A stretch of 64,000 nt of DNA from Nocardioides aquaticus (GTDB lineage Bacteria; Actinomycetota; Actinomycetes; Propionibacteriales; Nocardioidaceae), in contig NZ_CP075371.1 in NCBI RefSeq assembly GCF_018459925.1, forward strand, positions 2,294,001 to 2,358,000, written 5' to 3'. The notes under the pieces are model-generated. The model was not told where the DNA came from and did no database searches. It saw nothing but the letters and a program-made list of their open reading frames with translations. The translations under genes were made by a program, and so were the position numbers. The number at the start of each line of letters is the position of its first letter. The first letter of the stretch is position 1. Below are positions 2,867 through 48,035 of this stretch, piece after piece.

Positions 2867-2954
2867 GAGATGACACTTGCGGCGCCTCGAGATGACGCTC
2901 GCGGCGCCGCGAGATGACGCTCGCGGCGCCGCGAGATGACGCTCGCGGCGCCTC
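2867..2954 (+). repeat. 22-bp tandem repeat, array A (4 units)
   Basis: GAGATGAC begins at 2867, 2889, 2911 and 2933, an exact 22-bp period. Units 2-4 have the core GAGATGACGCTCGCGG and a CGCC(G/T)C tail; unit 1 differs slightly (GACACTTGCGG). Adjoining units create the perfect palindrome CTCGCGGCGCCGCGAG. This is the only array of the family lying between two divergent start codons (flavin-reductase-like and chromate transporter), and the only one with four units. It could therefore affect a promoter region, but nothing shows a function. Confidence 0.9.
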
Positions 2955-3015
2955 GAGCCGAGGTCGGACGGACGGCCCGGTTGACCACGGCCCCGGGCTC
3001 GCGGACGATCCACCC

Positions 3016-4389
3016 GTGGCCCCGTCGTCCCCGCCGCCCCCCGTCCGCGACGTGGTCCCGCTCCGCGAGGCCGCCCGGGCGTGGTTCGCCATCTCCCTGC
3101 AGACCTTCGGCGGCCCCGCCGGCCAGATCGCGGTGATGCAGCGCACCCTGGTCGAGGAGAAGCGGTGGATCGGCCAGCAGCGGTTCCTCTTCGCGCTGTC
3201 CTACTGCACCCTGCTGCCGGGCCCGGAGGCGCAGCAGCTGGCGACGTACGTCGGGTGGTTGCTCAACGGCGTCCGGGGCGCCCTGGTCGCCGGGATCCTG
3301 TTCATCCTCCCCGGGGTCGTCTCGCTGCTGGTGCTGTCGGGGATCTACGTCGCCTTCGGTGACACCACCGTGGTGGAGTCGCTGTTCCTGGGACTGGCGC
3401 CGGCGGTGATCGCGATCGTCGCCCAGGCCGTGGTCCGGGTCGCCCGGAAGGGCCTGACCCACCCGGCGCTGGTGGCCCTGGCGGTCGCCGCGTTCCTGGC
3501 CCTGACCCTGTTCTCGGTGCCCTTCCCCGCCGTCGTGGCCGCGGCGGCGCTCGTCGGATGGCTCCTCGGGCGGGTGCTCCCGGGTGTCGGCCGGCCGTCG
3601 GGGGCGGTCGCGGACGACGGCCCGGCGCCACTCATCAGCGACGACGCCCTCCACACCGAGCGGCCGTCGGGACGCCGCGCGACGGTGGTCCTCGCCGTCG
3701 GGCTCACGCTCTGGGCCGCGCCGGTCGTCCTGGCCGGGCTCGTCTTCGGGCGGTCCAGCATCTACGTCGACCAGGGCCTGTTCTTCTCCGGTGCGGCGGT
3801 GGTGACGTTCGGCGGTGCGTACGCGGTCCTGGCCTACGTCGCCCAGCAGGCCGTCGAGGTGTACGGCTGGCTGGCCCCGGGCGAGATGGTCCGCGGCCTG
3901 GCCCTGGCCGAGACCACCCCGGGGCCGCTGATCATGGTGGTGCAGTTCGTCGCGTTCGTCGGCGCCTACCGGGCGCCGGGGGAACTCGACCCGTGGGTGG
4001 CGGCGGTCCTGGCGTCGCTGCTGGTGACCTGGGTGACGTTCGTGCCGTGCTTCCTGTTCATCCTGCTGGGGGCGCCCTACGTCGAGCGTCTCCGCGGCAA
4101 CCGGTCGCTCGCGACCGCGCTCACCGGCATCACCGCCGCCGTGGTCGGCGTCATCGCCAACCTCGGCGTCTACTTCGCGCTGCACACCCTCTTCGCCGAG
4201 ACCGACCGCGTCGGGGCCGGCCCGCTCGACCTCGAGCTCCCGGTCCTGGACTCGGTCCAGTGGCCTGCGGTGGCCATCACCGGTCTGGGGTTCGCGCTGA
4301 TCTTCTGGCGGGGCTGGTCGGTGCTGCGGACCCTCGGGGCGTGCGCGCTGACCGGGGTCGTCGTGGGGCTGGTGCTGGCAGCGGTCTGA
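3016..4389 (+). CDS. chrA: Chromate transporter, two-domain ChrA family
   Basis: A 457-residue integral membrane protein with two homologous CHR domains, each opening with the family motif. The first is FGGPAGQIAVMQ (residues ~30-45) followed by LSYCTLLPGPEAQQLATYVG. The second is FGGAYAVLAYVAQQ followed by LALAETTPGPLIMVVQFVAF. This is the long-chain ChrA architecture with about 10-12 membrane segments and a hydrophilic linker near residues 195-220. Characterised members export chromate; others may move sulfate or related anions. GTG 3016 was chosen because it begins just ahead of the conserved region and has GACGAT five bases upstream as a possible leaderless -10 box. The frame stays open upstream to 2914, but that stretch lies in the 22-bp repeat array and is probably not translated. 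It is divergent from the flavin-reductase-like gene. Confidence 0.88.
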   Translation: MAPSSPPPPVRDVVPLREAARAWFAISLQTFGGPAGQIAVMQRTLVEEKRWIGQQRFLFALSYCTLLPGPEAQQLATYVGWLLNGVRGALVAGILFILPGVVSLLVLSGIYVAFGDTTVVESLFLGLAPAVIAIVAQAVVRVARKGLTHPALVALAVAAFLALTLFSVPFPAVVAAAALVGWLLGRVLPGVGRPSGAVADDGPAPLISDDALHTERPSGRRATVVLAVGLTLWAAPVVLAGLVFGRSSIYVDQGLFFSGAAVVTFGGAYAVLAYVAQQAVEVYGWLAPGEMVRGLALAETTPGPLIMVVQFVAFVGAYRAPGELDPWVAAVLASLLVTWVTFVPCFLFILLGAPYVERLRGNRSLATALTGITAAVVGVIANLGVYFALHTLFAETDRVGAGPLDLELPVLDSVQWPAVAITGLGFALIFWRGWSVLRTLGACALTGVVVGLVLAAV

Positions 4390-4523
4390 GGCTGGACACC
4401 GGGTCTAGGGTGAGGACGTCGCCGAGATCCCCCCTCGCGGTGACCACGCGGCGTCAGCCCAGCCCTCGCCGGCGCCGCGTCGCCCCCGGTGTCCCGCCCC
4501 GGGTTCCGCCCCGAGGATCTGCC

Positions 4524-4556
4524 TTAACTTCGCGACAGTTCAGGCATATGCTGAAC
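4524..4556 (+). promoter_or_regulatory. Leaderless promoter with dyad operator, satD
   Basis: TTAACT (4524-4529), a 17-bp spacer and TATGCT (4547-4552) form a sigma70-type promoter whose expected start point is the ATG at 4559. The dyad GTTCAG-N7-CTGAAC (4538-4556) covers the -10 box, as a repressor site would. The protein encoded downstream has a helix-turn-helix and could be the regulator. No ribosome binding site is present. Confidence 0.6.
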
Positions 4557-4558
4557 AG

Positions 4559-5194
4559 ATGGTCGTCCTGCACACCCTGATCGGCGATGTCGTGGACTCC
4601 CGGTCGATCGAGGACCGCGCCGCGTTCCAGGACCACCTCGCGACCGTGCTCGACCAGGTCACGGCCGCGCTGCGGCCCGAGCAGCCACTCGAACCCACGG
4701 TCGGCGACGAGCTCCAGGGCGCCTTCACCTCGGTCTCCGACGCCGTGCTCGCCTCGTTGCTGGTCCGGCTCGCGCTGCTGCCGGCGTACGACGTGCGGTG
4801 CGGGCTCGGCCACGGGGAGGTCGCCGTGCACGGCCGGCGCCGTCCGCTGCTGCAGGACGGCCCCGGGTGGTGGACGGCCCGCGACGCCCTCGACGTGCTC
4901 GGACGGCCGCGTCGCGCGGCCCAGCGCACCTGGTACGTCGGCCCCGACCAGGGGCGCGTCAACGCCTTCCTGCTGACCAGGGACGCCCTGGTGGACCGGC
5001 TCGGCCCCCGGGGACAGCGGCTGCTCGCCGCCGCCGTCACCGGCGCGAGCCAGGTCGAGATCGCCGCGGCCGAGGGCATCAGCCGGTCCGCGGTGAGCCA
5101 GCAGTTCGCGCGGGGTGTCGGTGCCCTGCGCGAGGCTCATCTCAGCTTCGCCGCCGGCGAGGGCGACATCGAGAGCGAGGGGGACCGCGGGTGA
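4559..5194 (+). CDS. SatD family protein with C-terminal helix-turn-helix
   Basis: A 211-residue protein opening with LHTLIGDVVDSRSIEDR, the signature of the SatD family (named from Streptococcus mutans). Members pair a small alpha/beta domain, which includes a GDELQGAF stretch here (residues ~50-58), with a C-terminal sigma70-region-4-like helix-turn-helix. In this protein the latter is QVEIAAAEGISRSAVSQQFARG (residues ~165-186, shown in part). The molecular function of SatD is unknown. The promoter is leaderless and carries a dyad that the protein might bind. Its stop overlaps the GTG of the next membrane-protein gene (GTGA), the usual partner of satD in actinobacteria, so the two form an operon. 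Confidence 0.8.
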   Translation: MVVLHTLIGDVVDSRSIEDRAAFQDHLATVLDQVTAALRPEQPLEPTVGDELQGAFTSVSDAVLASLLVRLALLPAYDVRCGLGHGEVAVHGRRRPLLQDGPGWWTARDALDVLGRPRRAAQRTWYVGPDQGRVNAFLLTRDALVDRLGPRGQRLLAAAVTGASQVEIAAAEGISRSAVSQQFARGVGALREAHLSFAAGEGDIESEGDRG

Positions 5195-5949
5195 GCCTGG
5201 TCCTGGTCGGTCTCTGGCTGGCGGCCATCGGCGCGAGCGACCTGCTGCGGGCCTCCCAGGACGTCGTGACCCCGCGTCGGCTCCTCGCCTGCCTCGGGGT
5301 GGCGACCACGGTGCTGCTCGTCGGACTGCTGCGGCTGGACCCCGGAGTGGGGCCCGGGGCCCTGCTGCTCGCCGTGCTCGGCGGCCTCGTCGCGACCTGG
5401 TTGGTCTCCTCCACGCTCGCCCTCGACCCCCGCCGTACCCCGCAGCAGCGCGACGTGGGCCGTGCGGTGGCCTTCGCCGCCCTCGCCGTCGGCGGGCTGA
5501 CGGCCCTGCTCGGCGTCCAGGCCGTCACCACGACGCTGACCTGGCCCGACGTCCTGAGCCGCACCGTCGCGGCCCGCTGGCCGGCCGCCGACCTCGTCGT
5601 GGCCACGGGCGTGGTGCTGGCACAGCTGGTCACCGCCAACATCGTCGTACGCCTGCTGCTCGACGCGGTCGGCGTGCCGGCCACCACGAACGAAAAGCGG
5701 CTCAAGGGCGGGCGGGTGCTGGGCCCCATGGAGCGGATCCTGATCGTGGGTCTCGGTGCGCTCGGCGAGCTGACCGCCGCTGCGATCGTGGTCGCCGCGA
5801 AGGGCCTGCTGCGCTTCCCCGAGCTGCAGCGAGCGCAGCGCGGACCGGAGGCGGACGGCCCGAGCGACGTCTCGGAGTACTTCCTGATCGGCAGCCTGGC
5901 GAGCTGGCTGGTCGCGCTGGGCGGCGCCGCGCTGATCCACCTCGCCTGA
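5191..5949 (+). CDS. Membrane protein, partner of SatD (DUF3307-like C-terminus)
   Basis: A 252-residue protein with about seven hydrophobic segments, starting at GTG 5191 inside the satD stop codon. The C-terminal part, from GPMERILIVGLGALGEL through VVAAKGLLRFPEL to SEYFLIGSLASWLVAL, resembles the conserved tail of the DUF3307-type membrane proteins that accompany SatD. The charged loop NEKRLKGGRVLG just before it is probably cytoplasmic. No enzymatic motif is visible. Co-translation with SatD suggests that the pair acts together, with SatD possibly responding to or regulating this protein. That is inference from position only. Confidence 0.7.
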   Translation: MSLVLVGLWLAAIGASDLLRASQDVVTPRRLLACLGVATTVLLVGLLRLDPGVGPGALLLAVLGGLVATWLVSSTLALDPRRTPQQRDVGRAVAFAALAVGGLTALLGVQAVTTTLTWPDVLSRTVAARWPAADLVVATGVVLAQLVTANIVVRLLLDAVGVPATTNEKRLKGGRVLGPMERILIVGLGALGELTAAAIVVAAKGLLRFPELQRAQRGPEADGPSDVSEYFLIGSLASWLVALGGAALIHLA

Positions 5950-5971
5950 GCGCGTGCCGAGCCGGCACCGC

Positions 5972-6295
5972 TCAGGCGGTGGCGGAACGGATCTGCTCGG
6001 CGAGCTTCTCGGCCGAGCGGGCGTTCTTCTTGCCGTCCAGGAGTGCCTTGCGACGCCCCGGGAGGGTGTCCACCGTCAGCTCTACCCGCGAGCCGGCTGC
6101 GGTCGGCGTGACGCGGACGCGGGCGTCGAGCTCCCAGCTCAGCATCGTCTTGCGGGTGACGAAGGAGATGGTGCGGCCGTCGGGGGTCTGGTCGCCGGGG
6201 CGGTGCTTGTTCTCGGCGACGACCTGGTGGACGCCCGCGGCCACCGCCTCCGGACGGGCAGCGATCTCGAACGTCGTGGTGGCAGAGGAATCCAT
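5972..6295 (-). CDS. Small hypothetical protein, possible SRPBCC-type lipid-binding fold
   Basis: A 107-residue protein from ATG 6295, with GGAG five to six bases upstream. The order TTFEIAARPEAVAAGV, then TISFVTRKTMLSWELDARVRVTPT and AAGSRVELTVDTLP, reads like the alternating strands of a START/SRPBCC domain, with a Lys/Arg-rich tail (GRRKALLDGKKNARSAEK). The family assignment is weak. It is convergent with the satD operon and divergent from the next gene. Confidence 0.6.
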   Translation of the reverse strand: MDSSATTTFEIAARPEAVAAGVHQVVAENKHRPGDQTPDGRTISFVTRKTMLSWELDARVRVTPTAAGSRVELTVDTLPGRRKALLDGKKNARSAEKLAEQIRSATA

Positions 6296-6456
6296 GTCGT
6301 CTCCAGGGGTGGGGAGGGGGGAGCGGGGGCAGGAGGTGCGGGTGGTGACGATCCTCCCCCCACCCGCACCTAGCGTCGAGCGCACCGCGCCGCACGTGCT
6401 CGCCCAGAGAACGAGTGCAGGCCGCGCCTGATCTCATCGCCTCCAGGAGGAAAACC

Positions 6457-6999
6457 ATGTCCCAGCGCAACACCACCGTCCGCAGCCTCCACGACCTCGG
6501 CCTCGCCGGCTGGTTCGGCGGCTCCCTGATGGGTGCGGTCGGCCTCAACGGTGCCGCGGCCCAGGCCCAGGACCCGCGCGAGCGTCTCAGCCTGTCGGCC
6601 GAGGGCTGGAAGCGCTGGGCCCCGGTCAACGCCGCCGCGATCGGCGCGCACGCCGTCGGCGGCGCCGGTCTCATCCTCGCCAACCGACGCCGCGTGCGCC
6701 AGCAGGACGAGGCCGCCGCCAACACCGCGATCAAGCTCGCCCTCACCGTCACCGCGGCCGGTCTCACCGCCTACAGCGGCGTGCTCGGCGCGAAGGTGCA
6801 GAAGGAGAGCGACCAGGGCGGCAAGGGTGCCACCGAGCCGTCCGACCAGGCCTCCGCCGGCCTCGCCGCGGCCCAGCGCCAGCTGCAGGCCGTGCAGTGG
6901 GCCATCCCCGCGATCACCGGCGTGCTCGTCGTGATGGGTGCCCAGCAGGGCGAGCAGCAGCGCCCGTCGCAGCAGCTGCGCACCCGCCTCGGCCGCTGA
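6457..6999 (+). CDS. Hypothetical four-helix membrane protein
   Basis: A 180-residue protein starting at ATG 6457 behind a strong AGGAGG site. Hydrophobic stretches occur near residues 15-35 (LAGWFGGSLMGAVGL), 52-73 (PVNAAAIGAHAVGGAGLIL), 90-112 (AIKLALTVTAAGLTAYSGVL) and 145-165 (WAIPAITGVLVVMGA), separated by charged loops. The N-terminus has no cleavable signal and the C-terminus is Gln/Arg-rich. I do not recognise the family. The 160-bp gap to the divergent upstream gene probably holds both promoters. Confidence 0.7.
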   Translation: MSQRNTTVRSLHDLGLAGWFGGSLMGAVGLNGAAAQAQDPRERLSLSAEGWKRWAPVNAAAIGAHAVGGAGLILANRRRVRQQDEAAANTAIKLALTVTAAGLTAYSGVLGAKVQKESDQGGKGATEPSDQASAGLAAAQRQLQAVQWAIPAITGVLVVMGAQQGEQQRPSQQLRTRLGR

Positions 7000-7018
7000 A
7001 CGGCTCGCGCCGGGGTCG

Positions 7019-7339
7019 CTAGGACGCGCCGTCGGGGCGTCGTACGACGACGGCCCCGGCGTTGTCCGGCCACCCCGGCGGGGTGGCGACCTGCTTGAGG
7101 CGACCCACGGTCGTCTGGCCCCCGCCGGCGGAGAACGTGTCACCCACCGCATAGCGGGAGCCGGCGTACGTCAGGTGCGTGCCGTCCCAAGAGACGTCCT
7201 CCCGGTGGGCGACGAGCAGCGAGCTGCCGAGCGTCACCGCGCCGTGGAAGACCCCGAGGCGACCCAGCAGGATGCCCGGCAGCTGGGGGGCCCGCTCGTA
7301 CGTCGTCAGCACGGCGTCACTGCGATCGGCTTCAGGCAC
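7019..7339 (-). CDS. Hypothetical protein, 106 aa
   Basis: Starts at GTG 7339 with TACGAT seven bases upstream on the coding strand (7352-7347), so the transcript is probably leaderless. The protein is soluble with no signal peptide. Its centre (AVTLGSSLLVAHREDVSWDGTHLT and SRYAVGDTFSAGGGQ, shown in part) suggests a small beta-rich fold. No family recognised. It is convergent with the membrane-protein gene to its left, with a 19-bp gap. Confidence 0.6.
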   Translation of the reverse strand: MPEADRSDAVLTTYERAPQLPGILLGRLGVFHGAVTLGSSLLVAHREDVSWDGTHLTYAGSRYAVGDTFSAGGGQTTVGRLKQVATPPGWPDNAGAVVVRRPDGAS

Positions 7340-7553
7340 GCCTTGGATCGTAGTGATCGGTGGGGGCGCGGGCCGAGGGGGTGAGCTCCCCGCCTCGCGG
7401 TGCGGGAGCGAGTGTAGTGAGCGCCTCTCGAGACCATCACTGCAAGCCTGTTAACGAACCTTTGATCGAATGTGGCCGTACTGGGTGTGCAAAACTGCCT
7501 CTGACCTGTTGAAACACCCCAGAACTGTCGGTGGCGAGTGCTTGGATTGATCC

Positions 7554-8834
7554 ATGGCCACCGACAACGACACCACCACCGCACACCCCGTGCCGGCCGG
7601 TGTCCGCGCCCTGTCGGCGAGCGTGACGGCGTTGGCGGAGCGGCCGCTGTTCGCGTTGGACGCCGCCACCACCCGGCAGACGATCGTGGCCCTGTCCGAG
7701 CTGAAGTCGCGCCTCGCGGCCTACGAGTACGCCGTCCTGGCCCACGCCGAGGAGGTCCAGGTCGGCGCCGACACCGGCTGCACCTCCACCGGTGTCTGGG
7801 CCGCCAACGCCACCCGCTCGCCGAAGAACGTCACCGCCGCCCAGGTGAAGCTGGCCACCGCCCTGGAGTCCCGGTGGCACCGTGTGCGGGACGCGCTGGC
7901 CGACGGTGTCATGAACCCCGATCAGGTCCGGGTCGTGGTGAACGCGTTGGAGGACCTCCCCGACGACCTCGACGCAGCCCTCCTGGTCCAGGCCGAGGAG
8001 GCACTGGTCGCCTACGCCGTCGAGTTCGCTCCCACCGAGCTCAAGCAGCTCGGCGCGCACATCCTGACCCTGATCGCACCGCAGGTCGGTGAGGAGATCG
8101 ACCGCAAGAGGCTCGAAGCCGCTGAGGCGAAGGCCGCGCAGAAGCGCAGGTTCACGCTGTCGTTCGACGGGCACGGCACCGCGCACGGGCGGTTCACGAT
8201 CCCCGAAGTCCAAGGGCAGATGCTGCAGAAGCTCCTCCACGGGTTCGCTGCCCCTGGCCACGTCAACTGCACCTCCGCCAGCGACGACCCCGAGGGTGGG
8301 AAGCGGGAGTGGGTCAAGGGCCGCCCGTCGGCGCAGAAGCTGGGTGAGGCGTTCTGCGAGCTCATCGAGAACTACCCCCGCACGAGCGCACCGAAGGTCG
8401 GGGGAACGTCCGCGACGGTCGTGGTCGCGACGTTCCTCAAGGATCTCCAGGACGGCCTCGGGACCGCCACCCTGGACACCGGTGGGGAGATGACGGTCGC
8501 GCAGGTCCGGCGTCTGGCGTGCGAGGCCGAGATCATCCCGGTCGTCCTCGGCGGCGACGGGGAGATCCTCGACCTCGGCGACGGCAAGCGGTTGTTCTCC
8601 ACCCCGCAACGGATCGCGATCGCGCTGCGTGACACGACGTGCACCGCCAGAGGCTGTGACTGGCCCGCCTACCTGTGCCATTTCCATCACGACACCTGGG
8701 TCTCCAAGGGTGGCAAGACCGACCTCAAGGACGGGCGGCTGCTGTGTCCGCACCACCACGCCCGCGCCCACGACCCCACCTACGACATGACCGTCCACGC
8801 CGACAACGAGGTCACCTTCCACCGACGGACATAA
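7554..8834 (+). CDS. DUF222 domain protein with HNH endonuclease motif (13E12 family)
   Basis: A 426-residue protein from ATG 7554. The N-terminal two-thirds is the DUF222 helical region (for example ALSELKSRLAAYEYAVLAHA). The C-terminus carries the HNH core: CTARGCDWPAYLCHFHHD, then KGGKTDLKDGRLLCPHHH. The Cys residues and the HH/HHH clusters are the metal-binding and catalytic elements of HNH nucleases. Nocardioides and related genomes carry many DUF222-HNH copies, and Mycobacterium tuberculosis calls them 13E12 repeats. Their biological role is not settled, although mobility or recombination has been proposed. Supporting this, a long inverted repeat and a 38-bp dispersed repeat follow the gene directly. 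Its upstream region (7440-7553) is AT-richer than the surroundings. Confidence 0.9.
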   Translation: MATDNDTTTAHPVPAGVRALSASVTALAERPLFALDAATTRQTIVALSELKSRLAAYEYAVLAHAEEVQVGADTGCTSTGVWAANATRSPKNVTAAQVKLATALESRWHRVRDALADGVMNPDQVRVVVNALEDLPDDLDAALLVQAEEALVAYAVEFAPTELKQLGAHILTLIAPQVGEEIDRKRLEAAEAKAAQKRRFTLSFDGHGTAHGRFTIPEVQGQMLQKLLHGFAAPGHVNCTSASDDPEGGKREWVKGRPSAQKLGEAFCELIENYPRTSAPKVGGTSATVVVATFLKDLQDGLGTATLDTGGEMTVAQVRRLACEAEIIPVVLGGDGEILDLGDGKRLFSTPQRIAIALRDTTCTARGCDWPAYLCHFHHDTWVSKGGKTDLKDGRLLCPHHHARAHDPTYDMTVHADNEVTFHRRT

Positions 8835-8847
8835 GCCGACCCAGCTC

Positions 8848-8898
8848 GGTCGATGGGTGATCTGCACCCACCAGGTGCACGGGGATCACCCATCGACC
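8848..8898. repeat. Nested inverted repeat behind the DUF222-HNH gene
   Basis: Perfect 15-bp arms GGTCGATGGGTGATC (8848-8862) and its reverse complement (8884-8898) enclose a second hairpin, TGCACC-CACCA-GGTGCA (8863-8879). It lies 14 bp after the stop codon. No T-run follows, so it is not a classical terminator, although it could end transcription or mark the end of a mobile unit. Confidence 0.85.
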
Positions 8899-8908
8899 TG
8901 CGGAGGTT

Positions 8909-8946
8909 GGTCTCGAGACGCTCGCTGCGCTCGCTCCTCGACCACC
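8909..8946 (+). repeat. 38-bp dispersed repeat, copy 1
   Basis: Begins GGTCTCGAGACGCTCGCTGC and ends TCGACCACC. It is identical over 38 bp to 52957-52994 inside sbcC. A degenerate relative occurs at about 7405-7436. The same type of repeat is frequent near DUF222-HNH genes in Nocardioides and allied genomes. It begins with the palindrome-like GGTCTCGAGAC. Confidence 0.9.
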
Positions 8947-9031
8947 CGGGTTCGACCGACCCCGTACCCGTCCGAAACCGCTACGCCGCGCCCAGGGTCG
9001 CTCGTCACCGGGTCTCGAGACACCCCGGAGG

Positions 9032-10171: not shown

Positions 10172-10178
10172 GCCGGTG

Positions 10179-11597
10179 TCACCGACCGGGGGCCGCCGCT
10201 GCGAGCTCCCGGCCGAGGATGCGCGCGCCCTCGGCGAAGTCCGCCGGGCGGGGGCCGGCGAAACCCAGCCGGAGGTACGGCGCGGGCGGCTCGGCGGGGA
10301 ACCAGTCGGCGCCGTCGGCGACGGCCAGACCGGCGCGGCTGCAGCGCTGCACCAGGTCCGGTACGTCCGTGCCGGCCGGCAGGCGTAGCCACAGGTTGAG
10401 CCCGCCTGCAGGGACCTGCTCGAGCACGCCGTCCGGCACGTGCTCGCGCAGCGCGCCGGCCAGCAGGTCCCGCCGGCCGTGGAGCTGCTCGCGCAGGCGT
10501 CGCAGGTGGGTGCGCCACCCGGGCTGGGTCACCACGTCGAGGGCGGCGGCCTGCAGCAGACCGCTGACGTAGAGCGACTCCGCGGCCCGGTCGGCGAGGA
10601 CCCGCTCTCGTACGGGCCCCCGGGCCACCAGTGCGGCGACCCGCAGCGAGGGGGACACGCTCTTGGTCAGCGAGCGCAGGTAGACCACGTGGCCCGTGTC
10701 GTCGAGCGACGCCAGCGGCAGCGGGGTGGTGGTGATGCCGAGGTCGTGCGCCCAGTCGTCCTCCACCAGGAAGGCGTCGTGCGCCCGGGCGACCGCGAGC
10801 ACCTCGGCCCCGCGGGCCGGGGTCCACTGCGCCCCGGTGGGGTTGGCGTAGTGCGGCTGCACGTAGCAGGCCCGTGCCCCGGTCTCGGCGAAGGCGCGGT
10901 CGAGCCGGGCCGGGTCCGGCCCGTCGTGCCCGCTGGGTACCGCCACCACCCGCACCCCGGCCTGCTCGGCGGCGCGCAGGGCGCCCCAGTAGGTGGGGGA
11001 CTCCACCAGCAGCGCCTCTCCCGGGGCCACCAGGGCGCGGAAGACCGAGCTCAGGCCGCTCTGGCTGCCGGGCAGGACGACCACCTCGTGCGCGGCGGGC
11101 GGCGTCACGTCCACCGGGGTGGTGGTGGCCAGCTCCGAGGCGAACCAGGCGCGCAGCCCCGGCAGGCCCTCGCTCGGCGGCCGGACCAGCGCCGCGTCGG
11201 ACCGGGCGGCCCGGCCGAGGGCGGCGCGCACCAGCCGCTCCGGCAGCAGGGCGGGGTCGGGGTAGCCGGAGTGCAGGGCGATCACGTCGTCCGACGTCGT
11301 GCGCAGCGCCGCGGGCACACCGGGGGAGCGGGCCGGGGGCGGGCGCAGGGCCGCGGTCTGCCAGCCGAGGTCGGCGGTGCGCACCGGGCGTGCGGCGCGC
11401 ACGAACGTGCCCGCGCCCGGACGGGTCTCCACGAGTCCCTGCGTCGACAGCGTCCGCAGCGCCCGCTGCACGGTGACCGGGCTGGCGCCGTGCTCGGCGA
11501 CCAGGGCCCGCGTCGACGGCAGCCGCGACCCCGGGGCGGCCGTGCCGATCCACTCCCGCAGCGCCGCCGCGATCCGTCCGCTGCTATCGTCATCCAT
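10179..11597 (-). CDS. MocR/PdxR family regulator (GntR helix-turn-helix fused to aminotransferase fold)
   Basis: A 472-residue protein from ATG 11597. Residues ~1-75 are a GntR winged helix (GSRLPSTRALVAEHGASPVT, VETRPGAGTFVRA). Residues ~100-472 form a fold-type-I aminotransferase domain that would bind PLP, with VLPGSQSGLSSVFRAL, YVQPHYANPTGAQWT and the PLP-lysine motif YLRSLTKSVSPSLR. MocR proteins often control neighbouring transport or PLP/amino-acid genes. The divergent EamA exporter is the obvious target. The start codon overlaps that of the exporter on the other strand, so no normal 5' untranslated region is possible between them. A dyad at 11607-11623 may be its operator. Confidence 0.88.
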   Translation of the reverse strand: MDDDSSGRIAAALREWIGTAAPGSRLPSTRALVAEHGASPVTVQRALRTLSTQGLVETRPGAGTFVRAARPVRTADLGWQTAALRPPPARSPGVPAALRTTSDDVIALHSGYPDPALLPERLVRAALGRAARSDAALVRPPSEGLPGLRAWFASELATTTPVDVTPPAAHEVVVLPGSQSGLSSVFRALVAPGEALLVESPTYWGALRAAEQAGVRVVAVPSGHDGPDPARLDRAFAETGARACYVQPHYANPTGAQWTPARGAEVLAVARAHDAFLVEDDWAHDLGITTTPLPLASLDDTGHVVYLRSLTKSVSPSLRVAALVARGPVRERVLADRAAESLYVSGLLQAAALDVVTQPGWRTHLRRLREQLHGRRDLLAGALREHVPDGVLEQVPAGGLNLWLRLPAGTDVPDLVQRCSRAGLAVADGADWFPAEPPAPYLRLGFAGPRPADFAEGARILGRELAAAAPGR

Positions 11598-23945: not shown

Positions 23946-24011
23946 GAGATGACGCTCGCGGACAGCCGAGATGACGCTCGCGGCGCCTCGAGGTGACGGT
24001 TCCGGCGTCAC
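23946..24011 (+). repeat. 22-bp tandem repeat, array B (3 units)
   Basis: Units begin at 23946, 23968 and 23990. Tails are ACAGCC, CGCCTC and GTCAC, and the third unit has the variant core GAGGTGACGGTTCCGG. The order of unit types is the same as in arrays E and F. The stop codon of the FUSC gene (complement of 24008-24010) lies inside the third unit. Confidence 0.9.
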
Positions 24012-25048
24012 CGGTCGCGGACGGAGGCGACGTCGTCGACGATCCTGACGATGGTGCGCAACGAGACCAGCAGGTCGCCGTAGACCGTCCACAGCAGCCC
24101 GGGGAGCTCCTCGCGCGACAGGTCGCGGACGAGGTCGTCGATACGGGGGAGGAGGTCCTCCATGCCGGCGTGCGGGTCCGCCATCCGCTCGCCCACCTCG
24201 CGCAGCAGCGCGAGCCAGGGCTCACGGAAGCGGGGGTCCCACTCCTCGGCGTCGGCGACCGCGTCGCCGACGGTCCGTGCGATGGCCCGGGCCTGCGCGA
24301 CCCCCTCCTCGAGGCGGTGCATCACGGTCTCGTCGCGGTCGGGGTCGCCGGCCGCCCGGGACCGTCGCCGCCGCACGTTGTAGCGCTGGCTGTCGCGCGA
24401 GTGCCGCAGCAGCTCCTCGCCGCGGTCGAGGTCGGCGTCGATCGCGCGGGTCTCGTCGATCCAGGCCTGCGCGTGCTCGTTGCTGGCCGGCAGAGAGAGG
24501 TCGTCGGCGATGCGGCGGAGCAGGTTGCCGAGCCGGCGGTCGACCTGGTCGAGCTGGCGCTCGGTGAGCCGGTCGTCGAGCGGCGGCACGACGAGGAAGT
24601 TCACCGCGACCCCCACCGCGACCCCGAGCAGCGTGTCGGCGAAGCGGTGCAGGAGCACGATCGACGCACCGTCCGCGCTGCTGGTCAGCACGAACAGGGC
24701 GGTCGTCGCGACGGTGACACCCTCCGCCCTGATCGCGGTCAGACGCGCCAGCAGCAGCCCGACCAGCACGGCCGCGCCCAGGCTGACCACCCCGCCCCCG
24801 AGCGTCACGACGGCCAGGAAGCTGACGATGATGCCCAGGAAGGTGGCGACCACGGTCTGACCGCCCCGCCACACCGAGGTCCGCACGGTGGCGTGCACGG
24901 TCAGCAGGGCCGCCCACGGCGCGAGGAAGGGTTGCGCCAGGTCCAGCACGGCCGCGGCCAGCAACCACGCCACGACGGTCGCGATGGTGGACTTGACCAC
25001 CTGGAGCAGGTCCGTACGGACCTCGGGACGCGCCAGCAGCCCCCGCAC
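24008..25048 (-). CDS. FUSC/aromatic acid exporter-like membrane protein
   Basis: About 346 residues from GTG 25048. The N-terminal half holds five or six membrane helices with the FUSC-type pattern (DLLQVVKSTIATVVAWLLAA, FLAPWAALLTVHATVRTSVW, GVAVGVAVNFLVVPP). The C-terminal half is a long charged helical cytoplasmic domain (LTERQLDQVDRRLGNLLRRI through DLSREELPGLLWTVYGD, shown in part). Relatives include aromatic-acid and fusaric-acid efflux proteins; the substrate is unknown. The start is uncertain: the frame is open upstream to the DUF1330 gene but offers no ATG or GTG, only a CTG overlapping that gene's stop. The stop codon is provided by repeat array B. Confidence 0.78.
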   Translation of the reverse strand: MRGLLARPEVRTDLLQVVKSTIATVVAWLLAAAVLDLAQPFLAPWAALLTVHATVRTSVWRGGQTVVATFLGIIVSFLAVVTLGGGVVSLGAAVLVGLLLARLTAIRAEGVTVATTALFVLTSSADGASIVLLHRFADTLLGVAVGVAVNFLVVPPLDDRLTERQLDQVDRRLGNLLRRIADDLSLPASNEHAQAWIDETRAIDADLDRGEELLRHSRDSQRYNVRRRRSRAAGDPDRDETVMHRLEEGVAQARAIARTVGDAVADAEEWDPRFREPWLALLREVGERMADPHAGMEDLLPRIDDLVRDLSREELPGLLWTVYGDLLVSLRTIVRIVDDVASVRDR

Positions 25049-25438: not shown

Positions 25439-26152
25439 GTGCTGGGGACGAGACGCGACGGTCCGGTGTCGGTGCTCGAGCTGCAGCGGGAGGACCGGCG
25501 CAACGCGCTCGACCTCGCGCTGTGCCGGGCGATCGGGGAGGCCGCGGCCGCCGAGGTCGACGCCGGGGCGCGGGTGCTGGTCCTGACCGGGCAGGGCTCG
25601 GCCTTCTGCGCCGGGGCCGACCTCGACGGCGTGTACGGCGGGGAGTTCCTCGAGGCGCTGTACGGGATGCTGCACGGACTGACCCGGCTGCCGGTGCCGG
25701 TCGTCGCCGCCGTCAACGGCCCGGCCATCGGCGCAGGCACCCAGCTGGTCCTGGCCTGCGACCTGCGGGTGGCCGCACCGACCGCGCGGTTCGCCGTGCC
25801 GACGGCCCGCAACGGGATGGCGGTCGACGCGTGGACCATCCGCACCCTCGCCGCCACCGTCGGCGCCGGTGTGGCCAACCGGGTGATGCTGGGGGCCGAG
25901 ACCCTCGACCACGACGCGGCGCTCGCGGTCGGCCTGGTCGACCGCACCGGTGACGTCGAGGACGCGCTGGCCTGGGCGCAGGAGGTGGCGGCGCTGGCGC
26001 CGTTGGCGCTGGCGCACAACAAGCTGGTGCTCCGGGGCGGTGACGACGAGACGGTCGCGGAGACCTTCGACGCGTGCTGGGCCAGCGACGACGTGCGCGA
26101 GGCGCTCGCGGCGCGTGCCGAGCGGCGTACGCCGGTCTTCCGCGGGCGCTGA
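25439..26152 (+). CDS. Enoyl-CoA hydratase/isomerase family protein
   Basis: A 237-residue crotonase-fold protein from GTG 25439, with TAGGCT six bases upstream (leaderless). It has the oxyanion-hole regions (QGSAFCAGADLDG and AAVNGPAIGAGTQLVLACDL) and RFAVPTARNGMAVDAWT in the position of the usual catalytic Glu region. A first catalytic Glu is not evident where hydratases carry it, so isomerase or another crotonase activity is possible. It probably acts on fatty-acyl-CoA or a similar acyl-CoA. The last base of its stop codon is the first base of repeat array C. Confidence 0.82.
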   Translation: MLGTRRDGPVSVLELQREDRRNALDLALCRAIGEAAAAEVDAGARVLVLTGQGSAFCAGADLDGVYGGEFLEALYGMLHGLTRLPVPVVAAVNGPAIGAGTQLVLACDLRVAAPTARFAVPTARNGMAVDAWTIRTLAATVGAGVANRVMLGAETLDHDAALAVGLVDRTGDVEDALAWAQEVAALAPLALAHNKLVLRGGDDETVAETFDACWASDDVREALAARAERRTPVFRGR

Positions 26153-26217
26153 GCGCGCCGCGATCGTCACCTCGACGCGCCGGAATCGTCATCCCGGCTG
26201 TCCGCGAGCGTCATCTC
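26152..26217 (-). repeat. 22-bp tandem repeat, array C (3 units)
   Basis: On the minus strand the units begin at 26217, 26195 and 26173: the first is the standard core plus ACAGCC, the second begins GGGATGACGATTCCGG, the third GAGGTGACGATCGCGG. A partial extra unit (CGGACAGCC) precedes the first. The array starts on the last base of the enoyl-CoA hydratase stop codon. Confidence 0.9.
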
Positions 26218-27069: not shown

Positions 27070-28395
27070 GTGAGCACCCGAGGCCGGACGACGCGCGCGG
27101 CCGGCGCCCTCACCGTCGCGACCCTGCTGCTGGCCACCGCCTGCGGAGCCTCGGGGCCGGAGGCCGACGCCCCCGCCGGCGCGGCCTCGCCGTCCGGCAC
27201 TGCGGAGTCCTCGGGATCGTCCGAGCCGGCCGCGCCGACCGAGCCCGCGGTGGACCCCGACGCCCCCACCGGCTGGGGGCCCACCGAGGGCGAGCTCGCC
27301 GAGGCGCAGGAGACGGCGGCCTCGATGACCGAGGCCGAGCTCGCCGGCCAGGTCGTGGTGGGCCGCTACCGCGGGACCGACCCCGCTGAGGCCGCGGCCA
27401 TGGTGCGCGACCTGCACCTCGCCGGCCTGAGCGTCACCTCCGAGAACCTCCTCGACGAGGCGCAGGCCCGCGCGATGACCGCGGCGATCTCCGGTGCCGT
27501 CGCCGAGGACGGACGCGACGTGCCGGCCGTGGTCGGCGTCGACCAGGAGGGCGGGACCGTCGAGCAGCTGCGCGGCATCGCGACCACGTTCCCTGCCTTC
27601 GCCGAGGCCGGCGAGGCGCTGGCCGCGGACCAGCAGCGGGGCCGCCGCGTGGTGACCGCGGCCGCCGACGCCGCCGGCCTCGAGCTGCGCGACCTGGGCT
27701 TCACCTGGGTCTTCGGGCCGGTGGCCGACGTCACGATCGGCGCCGCCGACCCGACCATCGGCTCGCGCTCGCCGTCGAGCGACGTCGACCTCGCCGCCGA
27801 GGCGGTCGTCGCGGCCCTGGCGGGGTACGCCGACGCGGGCCTGGTCACCACCGTCAAGCACTTCCCCGGCCACGGCGCCGTCACCAGCGACAGCCACCTG
27901 ACCCTGCCGGAGCTCGACTCGACCCTCGCCGAGCTGCGCGCCCGGGACCTGCGGCCGTTCGAGGCCGCCGTCGACGCCGGTGCGCCGGCGGTGATGATGA
28001 GCCACATCGCCCTCTACGCGCTCGCCCCCGGCCGGCCGGCGACCCTGGCCGCGCCGGTCTACGACCTGCTGCGCGACGAGGTCGGCTTCGAGGGCGTCGT
28101 GATCACCGACTCGCTCGGGATGGGTGCGGTCGTCGGCCGCGACACCCCGGCCGTCCAGGCGCTCAACGCCGGGGCCGACCTGCTGCTGATGCCGGCCGAC
28201 ACCGAGGCCACGCAGGGCACGCTGACCGACGCGATCACCTCGGGGCTCGTACCCCGGGAGCGGGCGGAGGAGGCCGCCGCCCGCGTCATCGCCCTGCAGC
28301 GGTGGCAGGCCCGTACGGCGGCCGCGGTGCCGGTGCCCGGTGACGTCGGGGCGCGCGCGGCCCGGGCCGCCGCGGACCTCGCGGCCGCCGGCTGA
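27070..28395 (+). CDS. Glycoside hydrolase family 3 lipoprotein, beta-N-acetylhexosaminidase-like
   Basis: A 441-residue exported protein from GTG 27070 (a TTG at 27058 is also in frame). A lipoprotein signal (GALTVATLLLATAC, Cys ~24) and a Ser/Pro/Glu linker to residue ~70 are followed by the GH3 barrel. Markers are VGVDQEGGTVEQL, FTWVFGPVADV, the NagZ signature TTVKHFPGHGAVTSDSH, and the nucleophile region VVITDSLGMGAV. NagZ-type enzymes release N-acetylglucosamine from cell-wall muropeptides; surface-anchored versions in actinobacteria probably act in peptidoglycan turnover. Two bases of the stop codon belong to repeat array D. Confidence 0.88.
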   Translation: MSTRGRTTRAAGALTVATLLLATACGASGPEADAPAGAASPSGTAESSGSSEPAAPTEPAVDPDAPTGWGPTEGELAEAQETAASMTEAELAGQVVVGRYRGTDPAEAAAMVRDLHLAGLSVTSENLLDEAQARAMTAAISGAVAEDGRDVPAVVGVDQEGGTVEQLRGIATTFPAFAEAGEALAADQQRGRRVVTAAADAAGLELRDLGFTWVFGPVADVTIGAADPTIGSRSPSSDVDLAAEAVVAALAGYADAGLVTTVKHFPGHGAVTSDSHLTLPELDSTLAELRARDLRPFEAAVDAGAPAVMMSHIALYALAPGRPATLAAPVYDLLRDEVGFEGVVITDSLGMGAVVGRDTPAVQALNAGADLLLMPADTEATQGTLTDAITSGLVPRERAEEAAARVIALQRWQARTAAAVPVPGDVGARAARAAADLAAAG

Positions 28396-28459
28396 CGCGC
28401 CGCGAGCGTCATCTCGACGCGCCGGAACCGTCATCTCGGCTGTCCGCGAGCGTCATCTC
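28394..28459 (-). repeat. 22-bp tandem repeat, array D (3 units)
   Basis: Minus-strand units begin at 28459, 28437 and 28415, with tails ACAGCC, CGCGTC and CGCGTC; the middle unit has the GGTTCCGG core. Unit order matches array C. It overlaps the stop codon of the GH3 gene by two bases. Confidence 0.9.
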
Positions 28460-41628: not shown

Positions 41629-41653
41629 TCGGCGACACGCGGGGCTGCTGTCG

Positions 41654-41682
41654 TTGACCCCGCTGCGACGGGGTCCTACCTT
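41654..41682 (+). promoter_or_regulatory. Sigma70-type promoter for ftsR
   Basis: TTGACC (41654-41659), exactly 17 bp, then TACCTT (41677-41682). The predicted transcript has a leader of about 100 nt and a ribosome binding site GGAGG before GTG 41788. Confidence 0.65.
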
Positions 41683-41787
41683 GAAGTCCTCCGTATGTAA
41701 CTCCACCGCTGTGGTGCGACCGGCCCGACCGGTCCGCACGGCTTTCCTGGGAGCTACCCTGCACGGAGCAGACCGACGGAGGACCGC

Positions 41788-42405: not shown

Positions 42406-42479
42406 CCCGCCCGACCAGAACCGCCCGTACGACCGGTCGGGCCTGACTCGTGGGCTAGGCTCGACCTGCTGACGATCCC

Positions 42480-42606
42480 GCACGGGAGAGTCTTGCCGCC
42501 GCAGCCCCGGGTGACCGGGTCACGGTGGGAAGCGCCGAAGGGGCAAATCCTCCCCGGAACCTCTCAGGCGCCCGGACCGTGCGGAGAAGGCAGCTCTGGA
42601 GCTCCG
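42480..42606 (+). promoter_or_regulatory. Glycine riboswitch upstream of gcvP
   Basis: Conserved aptamer segments occur in order: CACGGGAGAGTC, AGCGCCGAAGGGGCAA, CGGAACCTCTCAGGCGC, GGACCGTG and the closing helix CAGCTCTGGAGCTCC. A -10-like TAGGCT lies at 42456-42461. I see one clear aptamer followed by the trailing helix, not a full second aptamer. Glycine binding normally switches on glycine cleavage genes. The expression platform is probably the 42607-42673 leader. Confidence 0.9.
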
Positions 42607-42673
42607 ACGACGGGGTGACAGAGGGGGAGGTGAACGAGTGCGCCCATCCACTCTCGTCCCTCCAGGAGCCCGC

Positions 42674-45582
<2,909 letters not shown>

Positions 45583-45586
<4 letters not shown>

Positions 45587-46947
45587 GCGCCCTGCTGGAG
45601 CCCACGGCCCGGGCGGCCGTGGGCGTGCTGGCCCGCGCCCAGGCCACCGGGCGGATCCCGTCACTGGTGGGCGGCGTCGTCCGTGAGGGCGACGTCGTCT
45701 GGAGCGCCGGTCGCGGCACCTCGGTGACCGCGCCGTCGACCACCGGCGCCCGCCCGGACGCCGGCACGCAGTACAAGATCGGCTCGGTCACCAAGACGAT
45801 GACCGCGGTGCTGGTCATGCTGGCCCGCGAGCGCGGCGACCTGGCGCTCGACGACACGGTCGGGCGCTTCCTGCCCGACGGGCCGTTCGCCGACGCGACC
45901 CTGCGCTCGCTGCTGTCGCACTCGGCCGGGATCACCGCCGAGCCGCACGGCACCTGGTGGGAGCGCTCCACCGGTGGCGACCGGGCTGCCCTGGTCGCCG
46001 CGCACGCCGGCGCCGAGCGGGTCCTGGAGACCGGCTCGCAGCACCACTACTCCAACCTCGGCTTCGGGGTCCTCGGCGAGGTCGCGGCCGAGGTGGCCGG
46101 GTCGTCGTGGTGGGCGGCGCTCTCCGAGCAGGTCCTCGGCCCCCTGGGGATGACCCGGACGACCTACCAGTTCGAGGAGCCGTACGCCCGGGGCTGGGCC
46201 GTCGACGCCCTCACCGGCGAGCTGGTCGCCGAGCCGCTGCCCGACACCGGGGCGATGGCACCGGCCGGTCAGCTGTGGAGCACCGTGACCGACCTCGGCA
46301 CCTGGCTGTCCGCGCTGGTCGACCCGGACGCCTCGGTGCTGACCGAGGAGTCGCTGGTGGCGATGCGGACCCCGCAGGCGAGCACGCCCGGGGACCGGTC
46401 GGGCTCGTCGTACGGGCTGGGGGTCTCGGTGACCGTCGCCGGCGGACGGATGCTGGTGGGCCACGGCGGCTCGATGCCCGGCTTCACCTGCGGCGTCCTG
46501 GTCGACGTCGACTCGCGCACCGGCGCGGTGGTGCTGACCAACGGGGCGTACGGCCTGGGCGGCGCCACCCGCGAGCTGTTGGAGACGGTGCTGGACGCCG
46601 AACCGCCGCTGCCACGCGAGTGGAGCCCGACGACGGCACCTGTGCCGGAGGTGGTGCGCGAGGTGCTCGGCACCTGGCACTGGGGCCACGCCCCGTCGGT
46701 GCTGCGCTGGGACGGCAGCCACCTGCAGCTGGCCCCGGCCGACGGCCCGGGACGCGCGATGTCCTTCGCGCCCACCGACGACCCGGAGGTCTTCGTCGGT
46801 GCCACCGGCTACCTGACCGGGGAGACCCTGCGCGTGGAGCGGCACCCCGACGGCTCGGTCAGCCACCTGGGCTGCGCGACCTTCGTCTACACCCGCGTCC
46901 CGTACGACCCCCGCGCCCCCATCCCCACGCCCACCGAGCCGAGATGA
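45583..46947 (+). CDS. Serine hydrolase, class C beta-lactamase/penicillin-binding fold
   Basis: A 454-residue protein from GTG 45583, within the gcvP stop. The active-site motifs are the SxxK box in [17 protein letters not shown], the Tyr-x-Asn in [13 protein letters not shown] and the HGG-like box in [12 protein letters not shown]. There is no signal peptide, so it is probably cytoplasmic: an esterase, amidase or peptidase rather than a true beta-lactamase. The C-terminal 100 residues form a beta-rich lipocalin-like domain ([20 protein letters not shown]). It is co-translated with gcvP, which may be only read-through. The stop TGA is part of the first unit of repeat array E. Confidence 0.87.
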
Positions 46948-47006
46948 CGCTTCCGGACAGCCGAGATGACGCTCGCGGCGCCTCGAGGTGACGGTTCCGG
47001 CGCGCC
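46941..47006 (+). repeat. 22-bp tandem repeat, array E (3 units)
   Basis: Units begin at 46941, 46963 and 46985, with tails ACAGCC, CGCCTC and CGCGCC; the third has the GAGGTGACGGTTCCGG core. The TGA of the first unit is the stop codon of the serine hydrolase gene. With array F it encloses the CHAD gene in inverted orientation. Confidence 0.92.
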
Positions 47007-47048
47007 GGGGTGGTGGCCGGGGGGCGTACGCCGGTCCAGAATGCGGCG

Positions 47049-47960
47049 GTGGCCGACCTCGACCCCGACTCACCCGCCCGTGACGTCCTGCATCGCCGGC
47101 TGACCGAGCTCGCCGAGCGGCTCCCGGCCGCTGTCGCCGCGGCGCGGGAGGACCGGGACGACGGGCTGCACCGCACCCGCACCACCTGCCGTCGGCTGCG
47201 CGCGGTGCTGGTGGCGTACCGACCGCTGGTCGACCGCGAGCGGGTCGAGCCGGTGCGCGACGAGCTCCGGTGGCTGGCCCGGGCGCTGGGGGAGCGCCGC
47301 GACGTCGAGGTGGTCGGCGAGCGCCTGGGCCGGCTGCTGGACGAGGAGGAGCCGCGCCTGGTGCGGGGGCCCGTACGCCGTCGGCTGGCGACGCACCAAC
47401 GGGCCGCGCGGAGGACGACCGGTGCCGCCGACGACGTCCTCGACTCGGACCGCTGCGCGCGGCTCGTCGAGGCCGTGCGTCGGCTGGCCGAGTCCCCACC
47501 GTGGACCGTCCGGGCGGACAAGAGAGCCTCGAAGGTCGTGACCAAGCGGTTGCGCAAGGAGCTGTCCCGCGTCGCCGACCGCCTGGACGCCGTGCCCGAC
47601 GGCGAGCCGGGCGCCCGCGCCGAGCGCGAGCGTGACGAGGCCGTCCACGACCTGCGCAAGGCGGTGAAGCGGCTGCGGTACGCCGCCGAGGTCGCCCGAC
47701 CGGCCTTCGGCGCGGACGCCGACCGCCTCACGAAACGCGCCAAGCGGCTGACCACGGCGCTCGGGGACCGTCAGGACACCGTCGAGACCCGGGCGCTGCT
47801 GCGGACCCTCGCCGACGAGGCGGAGCAGTCCGGGGAGCCGACCTTCACCTGGGGCCGGCTGCACGCCCGCGAGGAGTCCGCGGCGCACGCCGTCGAGGCC
47901 GACCTGCCCCGCTTGTGGGACGCGGTCGCCCGCGACAAGACGAGCGGCTGGGTGCGCTGA
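47049..47960 (+). CDS. CHAD domain protein
   Basis: About 303 residues from GTG 47049, with CAGAAT six bases upstream (leaderless); the frame is open to GTG 47010 within DNA next to repeat array E. It is all-helical and Arg-rich, with two CHAD half-repeats: DGLHRTRTTCRRLRAVLVAY, and EAVHDLRKAVKRLRYAAEVA followed by RLTTALGDRQDTVETRALLR. The conserved His and basic residues fit binding of polyphosphate, which CHAD proteins are known to do. No CYTH triphosphatase domain is attached. The gene stands alone between two inverted copies of the 22-bp repeat array, which may mark it as a cassette. Confidence 0.85.
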   Translation: MADLDPDSPARDVLHRRLTELAERLPAAVAAAREDRDDGLHRTRTTCRRLRAVLVAYRPLVDRERVEPVRDELRWLARALGERRDVEVVGERLGRLLDEEEPRLVRGPVRRRLATHQRAARRTTGAADDVLDSDRCARLVEAVRRLAESPPWTVRADKRASKVVTKRLRKELSRVADRLDAVPDGEPGARAERERDEAVHDLRKAVKRLRYAAEVARPAFGADADRLTKRAKRLTTALGDRQDTVETRALLRTLADEAEQSGEPTFTWGRLHAREESAAHAVEADLPRLWDAVARDKTSGWVR

Positions 47961-47969
47961 GCGGCACCG

Positions 47970-48035
47970 AGGTCGCCGGAACCGTCACCTCGAGGCGCCG
48001 CGAGCGTCATCTCGGCTGTCCGCGAGCGTCATCTC
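47970..48035 (-). repeat. 22-bp tandem repeat, array F (3 units)
   Basis: Minus-strand units begin at 48035, 48013 and 47991, in the same order of types as arrays B and E (ACAGCC, CGCCTC, then GAGGTGACGGTTCCGG). It lies between the convergent CHAD and tldE genes, 9 bp after the CHAD stop. Confidence 0.92.

Follow-up and report, generated by a model that had tools for sequence, protein, structure and literature searches.

What are the short tandem-repeat arrays that recur along this part of the Nocardioides aquaticus chromosome, and what might they do there? The stretch analysed (the window, 64,000 bases) spans bases 2,294,001–2,358,000 of one 4,580,814-bp contig. In it lie six arrays whose 22-bp unit has the core GAGRTGACGNTYSCGG and normally occurs three times head-to-tail, ∼66 bp in total. 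Re-inspection bore out the preliminary description of these arrays, with an exact 22-bp period in all six, four units in the first and three in each of the others, and both orientations represented (three arrays on each strand); the first unit of the four-unit array is degenerate (GAGATGACACTTGCGG). The sequence TGACGNTNNCGG is found 20 times in the window, compared with a mean of 1.42 and a maximum of 4 in 100 shuffles, and 18 of the 20 copies lie in the arrays. The reading that we favour, at a little short of an even chance, is that the arrays are phased double-stranded DNA recognition triplets for a postulated protein, marking gene boundaries and often set in inward-facing pairs.

The array consensus is GCC GAGATGACGCTCGCGG ACA / GCC GAGATGACGCTCGCGG CGC / STC GAGGTGACGGTTCCGG (ACA or CGC), with conservation setting in at the GCC ahead of unit 1 and fading out a few bases past unit 3. 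The conserved order of unit types that had been noticed in the window (tail ACAGCC in unit 1, tail CGCSTC in unit 2, the variant as unit 3) holds genome-wide in most of 90 tabulated three-unit arrays, and this common order, together with the three-unit make-up of 93 of 119 arrays, upholds the proposal that the ∼66-bp composite is the copied entity. Across 639 units from N. aquaticus and its sister species, Nocardioides sp. AX2bis, heterozygosity was 0.39–0.47 at core positions 3, 9, 11 and 12 and at most 0.06 at the other twelve, and the degenerate positions keep to an alphabet in which position 9 may be any base, position 11 C or T and position 12 C or G. Where same-strand units follow one another within 150 bp, the spacing was the exact 22 bp for 239 of 240 intervals in N. 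aquaticus and 184 of 185 in AX2bis (423 of 425 in total; the two exceptions were 110 bp and 23 bp), unlike the array flanks, where 27 gap events were counted over 118 segments, each of ∼60 bp. Because 22 bp is ∼2.1 helical turns, neighbouring cores lie on almost the same side of the helix. A conserved asymmetric core, fixed spacing and rule-bound degenerate positions, the sequence features of a tandem binding array, were all present, and in our judgement the core is probably recognised by some protein. Homogenisation alone fails to explain twelve near-fixed positions beside one four-base and three two-base positions, and fails equally to explain the rigid spacing; drift within a homogenised pool would not easily yield a four-base position next to near-invariant ones, and the spacing agrees.

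The preliminary description had called for a count of the motif over the whole genome, and many further copies were found. A unit-pair pattern gave 116 forward and 84 reverse matches, and the same pattern read backwards gave none. Counting as an array two or more units, we found at least 126 arrays in the 4.58-Mb genome: 119 in 891,198 bases examined, which were mostly stretches picked around pattern matches, and 7 more above 3.0 Mb. The bases examined include 144,266 that had been added to the set, and these contributed two arrays (985883 and 1014669) new to the count. The 119 arrays comprised 93 of three units, 11 of two, 10 of four, 4 of five and 1 of seven. In 109 cases 33–36 of 36 core positions matched, no array scored 31–32, and those scoring 26–30 were ten two-unit arrays and a unit adjoining an insertion sequence.

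Arrays avoid genes and collect at gene ends. With gene positions from a home-made gene caller, 117 arrays were classed and 115 were intergenic (54 convergent, 49 tandem, 12 divergent), so that convergent and tandem gaps account for 103 of 117; most arrays adjoin the 3′ end of a gene, and either orientation occurs; array-less gaps in the same stretches numbered 361 tandem, 88 convergent and 125 divergent. In tandem gaps the array starts a median of 2 nt from the upstream stop codon (≤10 nt past it in 30 of 49), and in five N. aquaticus arrays the GAGATGA of unit 1 itself supplies the stop codon. Convergent gaps of 20–400 nt had a median length of 80 nt in the 49 with an array (10 nt minus the array) and 47 nt in the 45 without, a comparison confounded by gap length. 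Terminator replacement was considered and set aside: the gap comparison suffers from this confounding, and hairpins after the PmbA/TldD-family gene were uninformative, with strong folds in 28 of 30 loci. The same placement speaks to the idea that the arrays are operators of a specific regulon. The motif is site-like and 12 of 117 arrays do lie between divergent genes, but 103 are in convergent or tandem gaps and the products of ten genes adjoining the window arrays belong to unrelated Pfam families, which makes a regulon highly improbable. An autoregulated binder was also sought, by eye, among the genes at divergent-gap arrays and around a cluster of arrays at 1541912–1542510, and no convincing candidate was found there.

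Since arrays sit just past stop codons, they might instead act in RNA, as elements of the 3′ untranslated region. The preliminary description held that each unit can form the hairpin CGAG-ATGACG-CTCG; we found it confined to the commonest type of unit, with a pairing that is not conserved, because the 3′ arm varies without compensation at three of its four positions (9, 11 and 12) and the 5′ arm is nearly invariant. A single unit folds at −4.4 kcal/mol (z −0.35 and −0.04), folding of arrays on both strands gave no RNA signal (z +0.49 and +0.66), pairing-type covariation was absent across 155 three-unit arrays, and a scan of the window returned no Rfam match at the arrays. In tandem gaps, moreover, 24 arrays are oriented with transcription and 25 against it. 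An RNA element was rejected on these grounds, and we find a 3′ untranslated-region role barely credible. Of the identities first suggested, the protein-binding site and the REP-like repeat (REP, repetitive extragenic palindrome) are still live, whereas the RNA-level element did not hold up.

The second main feature is how neighbouring arrays face each other. That arrays occur in both orientations had been recorded at the outset, and the inward facing of neighbours had escaped notice. Among N. aquaticus neighbours ≤2.5 kb apart, 22 pairs were inward (+ then −), none outward, 5 ++ and 2 −−; neighbours of opposite orientation were thus always inward (22 of 22). The corresponding counts in AX2bis were 14 inward, 0 outward, 3 ++ and 3 −−. 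For neighbours up to 4 kb apart, inward to outward was 26:1 in N. aquaticus and 17:1 in AX2bis, and the excess stops growing past 8 kb. When array positions were jittered by ≤100 kb in 2000 runs, the means were 3.0 inward, 3.0 outward, 4.2 ++ and 2.3 −−, with an inward maximum of 10; a jitter that kept orientations gave an inward mean of 3.2 and a maximum of 11. Comparison with the observed counts therefore confines the excess to inward pairs. These pairs comprise 44 of the 119 arrays and have inner lengths of 115–2491 nt (13 of 22 between 653 and 1331), with one predicted gene in 12 pairs, two in 6, three in 2 and none in 2; the bracketed genes include, by eye, those for an HU-like protein, inorganic pyrophosphatase and uracil-DNA glycosylase-like proteins. 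All ten pairs that could be placed on both sides are inward pairs in AX2bis as well, with near-equal inner length, and for this reason the AX2bis pair counts are largely non-independent. One more inward pair (3008108+/3009215−) lies outside the count of 22.

Transposon ends carry inward-facing multi-site arrays, and the 22 of 22 inward pairs resemble them. The pairs might accordingly be present or past ends of composite mobile cassettes, served by a postulated transposase that binds the unit. The DNA bracketed by a composite transposon should be missing in relatives, and at the one site fully tested it is not: the pair at 577965–580170 brackets a divergent ppa/dacB-like (pyrophosphatase/DacB-like) gene pair, and the two genes stand next to each other in divergent orientation at all 29 of the 29 other loci, where no 22-bp unit is present. 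Because the genes are adjacent in loci without units, their DNA was not carried in by the arrays, which at that site were, on this comparison, evidently added around standing genes. A second bracketed gene encodes a CHAD-domain protein; of 29 loci in relatives, 6 had a recognisable CHAD relative downstream of the PmbA/TldD-family gene, on the other strand. The stop-to-stop distance is 81 nt in N. aquaticus and −32, −32, +10 and +645 nt in the four of these six that were measured, and the convergent arrangement in the first three of these tells against a cassette here too. All ten placed pairs are unmoved between the species. Neither a clean empty site nor a target duplication was seen, the one array found absent from AX2bis (881152) having no clean junction. 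We consider mobile cassettes very unlikely.

Is the family old and widespread, or private to a lineage? Exact unit pairs occurred in 1 of 58 genomes, that of N. aquaticus itself. With ≤3 mismatches allowed, 4 of 215 genomes of the genus had matches, namely N. aquaticus (160+136), AX2bis (168+148) and two with a single 3-mismatch match; at the level of the order it was 4 of 391, again the two species and two genomes with a single 3-mismatch match, one of which is already among the two from the genus, making three stray genomes in all. The preliminary description had also proposed that relatives be counted, and would have been refuted by a lack of further copies or by identical arrays at the same sites in distant relatives. 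Neither outcome was observed: further copies are many, and among the other 213 genomes of the genus, 211 were matchless and 2 had one 3-mismatch match. A four-unit pattern run over a collection of genome contigs hit only NZ_LR733215.1, from AX2bis, in a search that lineages without four-unit arrays would escape and whose collection possibly excludes the N. aquaticus genome. No array match was found in viral contigs, phages or plasmids, which rules against a phage or plasmid origin. The gap between genes read as ErpA and PfkB holds an array in both species and none in the 330 nt viewed at 28 other loci; a protein flanking it is 100% identical in AX2bis and 82% in the next genome. A search for comparable tandem families found no 22-bp spacing among the top 14-mers of 400 kb of a relative (G214), and a literature search, outside which most subscription papers fell, turned up no description of this repeat. 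The original remark that no described family was known to have this sequence holds to the extent that our searches of genomes and collections uncovered no relative outside one sister species. As far as these searches go, the family appears confined to a two-species Nocardioides lineage.

The two species differ at 10222 of 51380 fourfold sites (19.9%) and at 3.3% of codon positions 1+2 in 260 orthologous genes, a distance at which dozens of orthologous copies of this non-palindromic family can still be aligned. In 37 orthologous three-unit pairs the core differed at 25 of 1332 positions (1.9%), a figure limited in itself by the recognition of arrays through their core; at the four degenerate positions, 101 differences were counted in 444 comparisons (22.7%). 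The last six bases of the unit (the tail) differed at 40 of 222 positions, against 0.55 for random pairs, and the ∼60-bp flanks at 704 of 5713. Changes in 35 pairs kept the alphabet, with 21 of 21 within R (A/G), 27 of 28 within Y (C/T) and 23 of 25 within S (C/G). Of 53 orthologous pairs checked, all kept their orientation, 35 their unit number, and 18 had changed it.

Arrays seem to have hardly moved since the species separated. In the final mapping, 62 of 83 AX2bis arrays were placeable in the N. aquaticus DNA examined and all 62 had an N. aquaticus counterpart (19 were unplaced and 2 incongruent); conversely, of 119 N. aquaticus arrays, 58 were present in AX2bis, 1 absent, 59 unplaced and 1 incongruent (59 present, 1 absent, 2 incongruent and 57 unplaced in an earlier mapping). 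The mapped stretches were mostly picked around arrays, which favours finding counterparts. In a gap-free AX2bis block (547–800 kb) with 29 arrays, 25 were present, 2 flagged absent but present on alignment, and 2 unplaceable. The only true absence seen concerns the array at N. aquaticus 881152, which has no clean junction and has a right flank in common with 882961. The arrays at 742513 and 1183993 were no longer scored absent in the later mapping, and of four AX2bis arrays initially scored absent, three were present on alignment and the fourth, 62244, was already paired with an N. aquaticus array. At synteny breaks at AX2bis 630625, 639875 and 2695545 (N. aquaticus 891676, 902842 and 1326774), where one flank aligns and the other does not, it is the conserved gene end that has kept the array beside it.

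At the degenerate positions orthologs differed by 0.227 and random array pairs by 0.285, with memory of the locus in unit 2 (p 0.008) and unit 3 (p 0.0007) and none of significance in unit 1 (p 0.095). Core differences were similar in orthologs (0.019) and random pairs (0.022), as expected if the core is near-fixed everywhere, and shared rare states (4, with 0.75 expected) were too few to use. Inter-array recombination thus occurs, and judging by the remaining locus memory it has probably not overwritten everything. The memory in units 2 and 3 and the tail difference between orthologs suggest that some units were not overwritten, and their cores are near-intact throughout.

These observations bear on the rival that we take most seriously, that the arrays are a selfish or inert REP-like family that spread in the past, copied itself locally in inverted form off one end (partly, and hence the inward pairs), now lies where it harms the cell least, and is kept uniform by recombination and not by any usefulness to its host; this is quite possible, if on balance doubtful. 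In part of PMC3733652, REPs are described within 20 bp of both stops of convergent genes, sometimes donating the stop codon, and because this placement is that of the 22-bp arrays, the selfish account comes close to the reading that we favour. The likeness to REPs, BIMEs and REPINs as treated there extends to short length, high copy number, extragenic position at gene 3′ ends and restriction to a lineage. The near-randomised degenerate positions and the change of unit number in 18 of 53 orthologous pairs fit it, as do local copies with common flanks at three N. aquaticus sites (2492131/2493299, 1541912/1542044/1542272 and 881152/882961).

A second dispersed repeat in the same genomes served as a control. 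This REP-like repeat, GGTCTCGNGACGCTCGCTNCGCTCGCTCCTCGACCACCGG, is ∼40 bp long and not a 22-bp direct repeat; 14 copies scored at least 35 of 38 in the N. aquaticus DNA examined. Copies lie at window 8930 and 52978 and at N. aquaticus 1359169, 2592771, 2664231 and 2725690, the latter four close to arrays, and near AX2bis 1635345–1635600 the repeat is strung out in a long tandem series of 29-bp period. Both repeats contain GACGCTCGC (TGACGCTCGC in one variant), and at AX2bis C8 161690–162240 (near 161.9 kb) a GGTCTCGNGACGCTCGCTNCGCTCGCTCCTCGACCACCGG-type repeat and a 22-bp array are joined at TGACGCTCGC; the fusion forms part of a local duplication. In contrast to the arrays, repeats similar to GGTCTCGNGACGCTCGCTNCGCTCGCTCCTCGACCACCGG occur in other species of the genus too, placed in gaps of the same type. 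Possibly, and as a lead that the shared sequence offers, the arrays were built from an arm of such an older repeat. Because the control is likewise retained and undecayed, neither array retention nor the lack of decay is diagnostic of function.

Several features set the arrays apart from REPs. REPs, tagged GTAG or CGTC, are described, again in part of PMC3733652, as palindromic, with stems of 5–13 or 8–9 bp and mostly in close head-to-head pairs; the arrays are non-palindromic head-to-tail triplets in a rigid 22-bp phase, paired inward over ∼0.65–2.5 kb. The RAYT/Y1 transposase (PF01797) was found in 0 of 10 genomes, including N. aquaticus and AX2bis, in a search whose control was positive in 5 of 14 genomes with names. 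No transposase accompanies CGTC-tagged REPs either, yet in the same part of that source they have 8–9-bp stems and form head-to-head dimers; the arrays have no such stem, and their units run head-to-tail. General local copying, which a selfish family might show, is not evident in same-strand neighbours (5 and 2, against 4.2 and 2.3 under jitter), a mild point. We do not file the arrays under REP or REPIN: they share the high-copy extragenic niche at gene 3′ ends, and palindromy and transposase both fail.

How might the arrays work, if they are recognised? A sequence-specific double-stranded DNA-binding protein may occupy all three core sites together, and with sites ∼2.1 turns apart on nearly the same face, a protein on all three would form a long-lived obstacle. 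Less certainly, the bound protein could act as a roadblock to RNA polymerase or as a topological insulator at gene boundaries, and two inward arrays could cooperate across the segment between them, for example by looping. The arrays would have spread by copying in the ancestor of the lineage and been near-immobile since the two species diverged, while recombination added units, removed others and homogenised them in part. Given recognition, we put the chance of a boundary role at roughly two thirds. Such a role would fit, because the arrays are indifferent to the direction of transcription, excluded from genes, and occupy convergent gaps that are otherwise near-empty; joint action of two arrays is suggested, in addition, by the inward rule. 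The strongest form of the proposal, in which a lineage-specific protein reads GAGRTGACGNTYSCGG triplets at >100 gene ends and inward arrays pair into insulated micro-domains of 1–3 genes, we regard as unlikely but worth stating.

A number of points weigh against recognition triplets at gene boundaries. The function as a whole is one that we infer from sequence, and its weakest step is the binding protein, which is postulated. Placement at gene ends and supply of stop codons are REP traits too, the control repeat was likewise kept (at all 4 of the 4 loci that could be placed, whichever species was mapped on the other) and likewise lacks intermediate scores, and the near-randomised degenerate positions imply that inter-array recombination is active, which could explain part of the core uniformity. 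Inward-only pairs could also arise by copying off one array end, and 75 of 119 arrays lie outside any inward pair. The convergent-gap comparison is, as noted, confounded by length, and two arrays (1534669 and 891676) adjoin terminator-like hairpins by eye. Finally, the absence of the family from other genomes of the genus means that any function is dispensable there.

Several known systems resemble the arrays in part. Iterons and the ends of Tn7 and Mu have ∼22-bp direct repeats at about two-turn spacing, facing inward when they bracket DNA; the arrays differ in being dispersed over >100 gene ends and in bracketing DNA that is ancestral where tested, and among the genes read beside arrays there was no linked replication or transposition gene. 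Convergent CTCF sites are likewise oriented and pair inward at boundaries, unlike the present case in that this one is bacterial, on a ∼1-kb scale, and its protein is postulated. MIRU is another element for comparison. Site-specific protein roadblocks to RNA polymerase are established for LacI, CcpA, Reb1 and Rap1 in the roadblock section of PMC10310618, where a bound protein halts the polymerase at a chosen place, as proposed for the arrays; that section describes no genome-wide set dedicated to gene ends. It is not settled whether repeats of the REP type should be seen as parasites or as tools, and the persistence of repeat populations has been modelled (PMC8049555). In this family the core, the degenerate positions, the fixed spacing, the inward-pair rule and a neutral yardstick can all be measured together. 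If a reader protein exists, the arrays would represent a novel means by which GC-rich bacteria keep abutting genes apart, and if the boundary reading is true they would be the bacterial analogue of boundaries of the convergent-CTCF or Reb1 type, genome-wide in one Nocardioides lineage.

The distribution along the chromosome adds little to this choice. The first 10 kb contains genes read as dnaA, dnaN, recF, gyrB and gyrA, which puts the origin close to base 1; the window is thus close to the other pole of the chromosome. With the terminus set at 2.29 Mb, the arrays showed a slight leading-strand excess (71:48, p 0.043, uncorrected), as oriented replication or segregation sites of the Chi, KOPS or fork-trap type might. 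The excess is weak, far from the strong replichore polarity of such sites, and inward pairs put both orientations ∼1 kb apart; we attach almost no weight to this explanation. The region from 0.5 to 1.0 Mb, 11% of the chromosome, holds 41 of the 119 arrays examined, and the part from 2.75 Mb to the end is array-poor. Within 600 bp at 1541912–1542510, four arrays lie between genes read as L,D-transpeptidase and cytochrome b, and at 1817411–1818760 a transposase gene (IS30-like by eye) sits with its flanks inside an apparent single array, splitting it.

In the window itself, array 1 (2867–2954, +), with its four units, lies between the divergent genes 2212–2673 (−) and 3016–4389 (+). Array 2 (23946–24011, +) is at the stop of the minus-strand gene 24008–25048, overlapping its last 4 nt, and array 3 (26152–26217, −) starts in the stop codon of gene 25466–26152 (+); with array 2 on the left and array 3 on the right, the two form an inward-facing pair that brackets three genes. 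Array 4 (28394–28459, −) starts at the stop codon of gene 27070–28395 (+). In array 5 (46941–47006, +), the first GAGATGA is the source of the stop codon of gene 45583–46947 (+), and array 6 (47970–48035, −) fills the gap between the convergent stops of the CHAD-domain gene 47049–47960 (+) and the PmbA/TldD-family gene 48042–49451 (−). Arrays 2 to 6 have three units each, and arrays 5 (left) and 6 (right) face inward around the CHAD gene, a pair also found in AX2bis. Elsewhere in the window, 42473–42589 scored above the Rfam gathering threshold as a glycine riboswitch.

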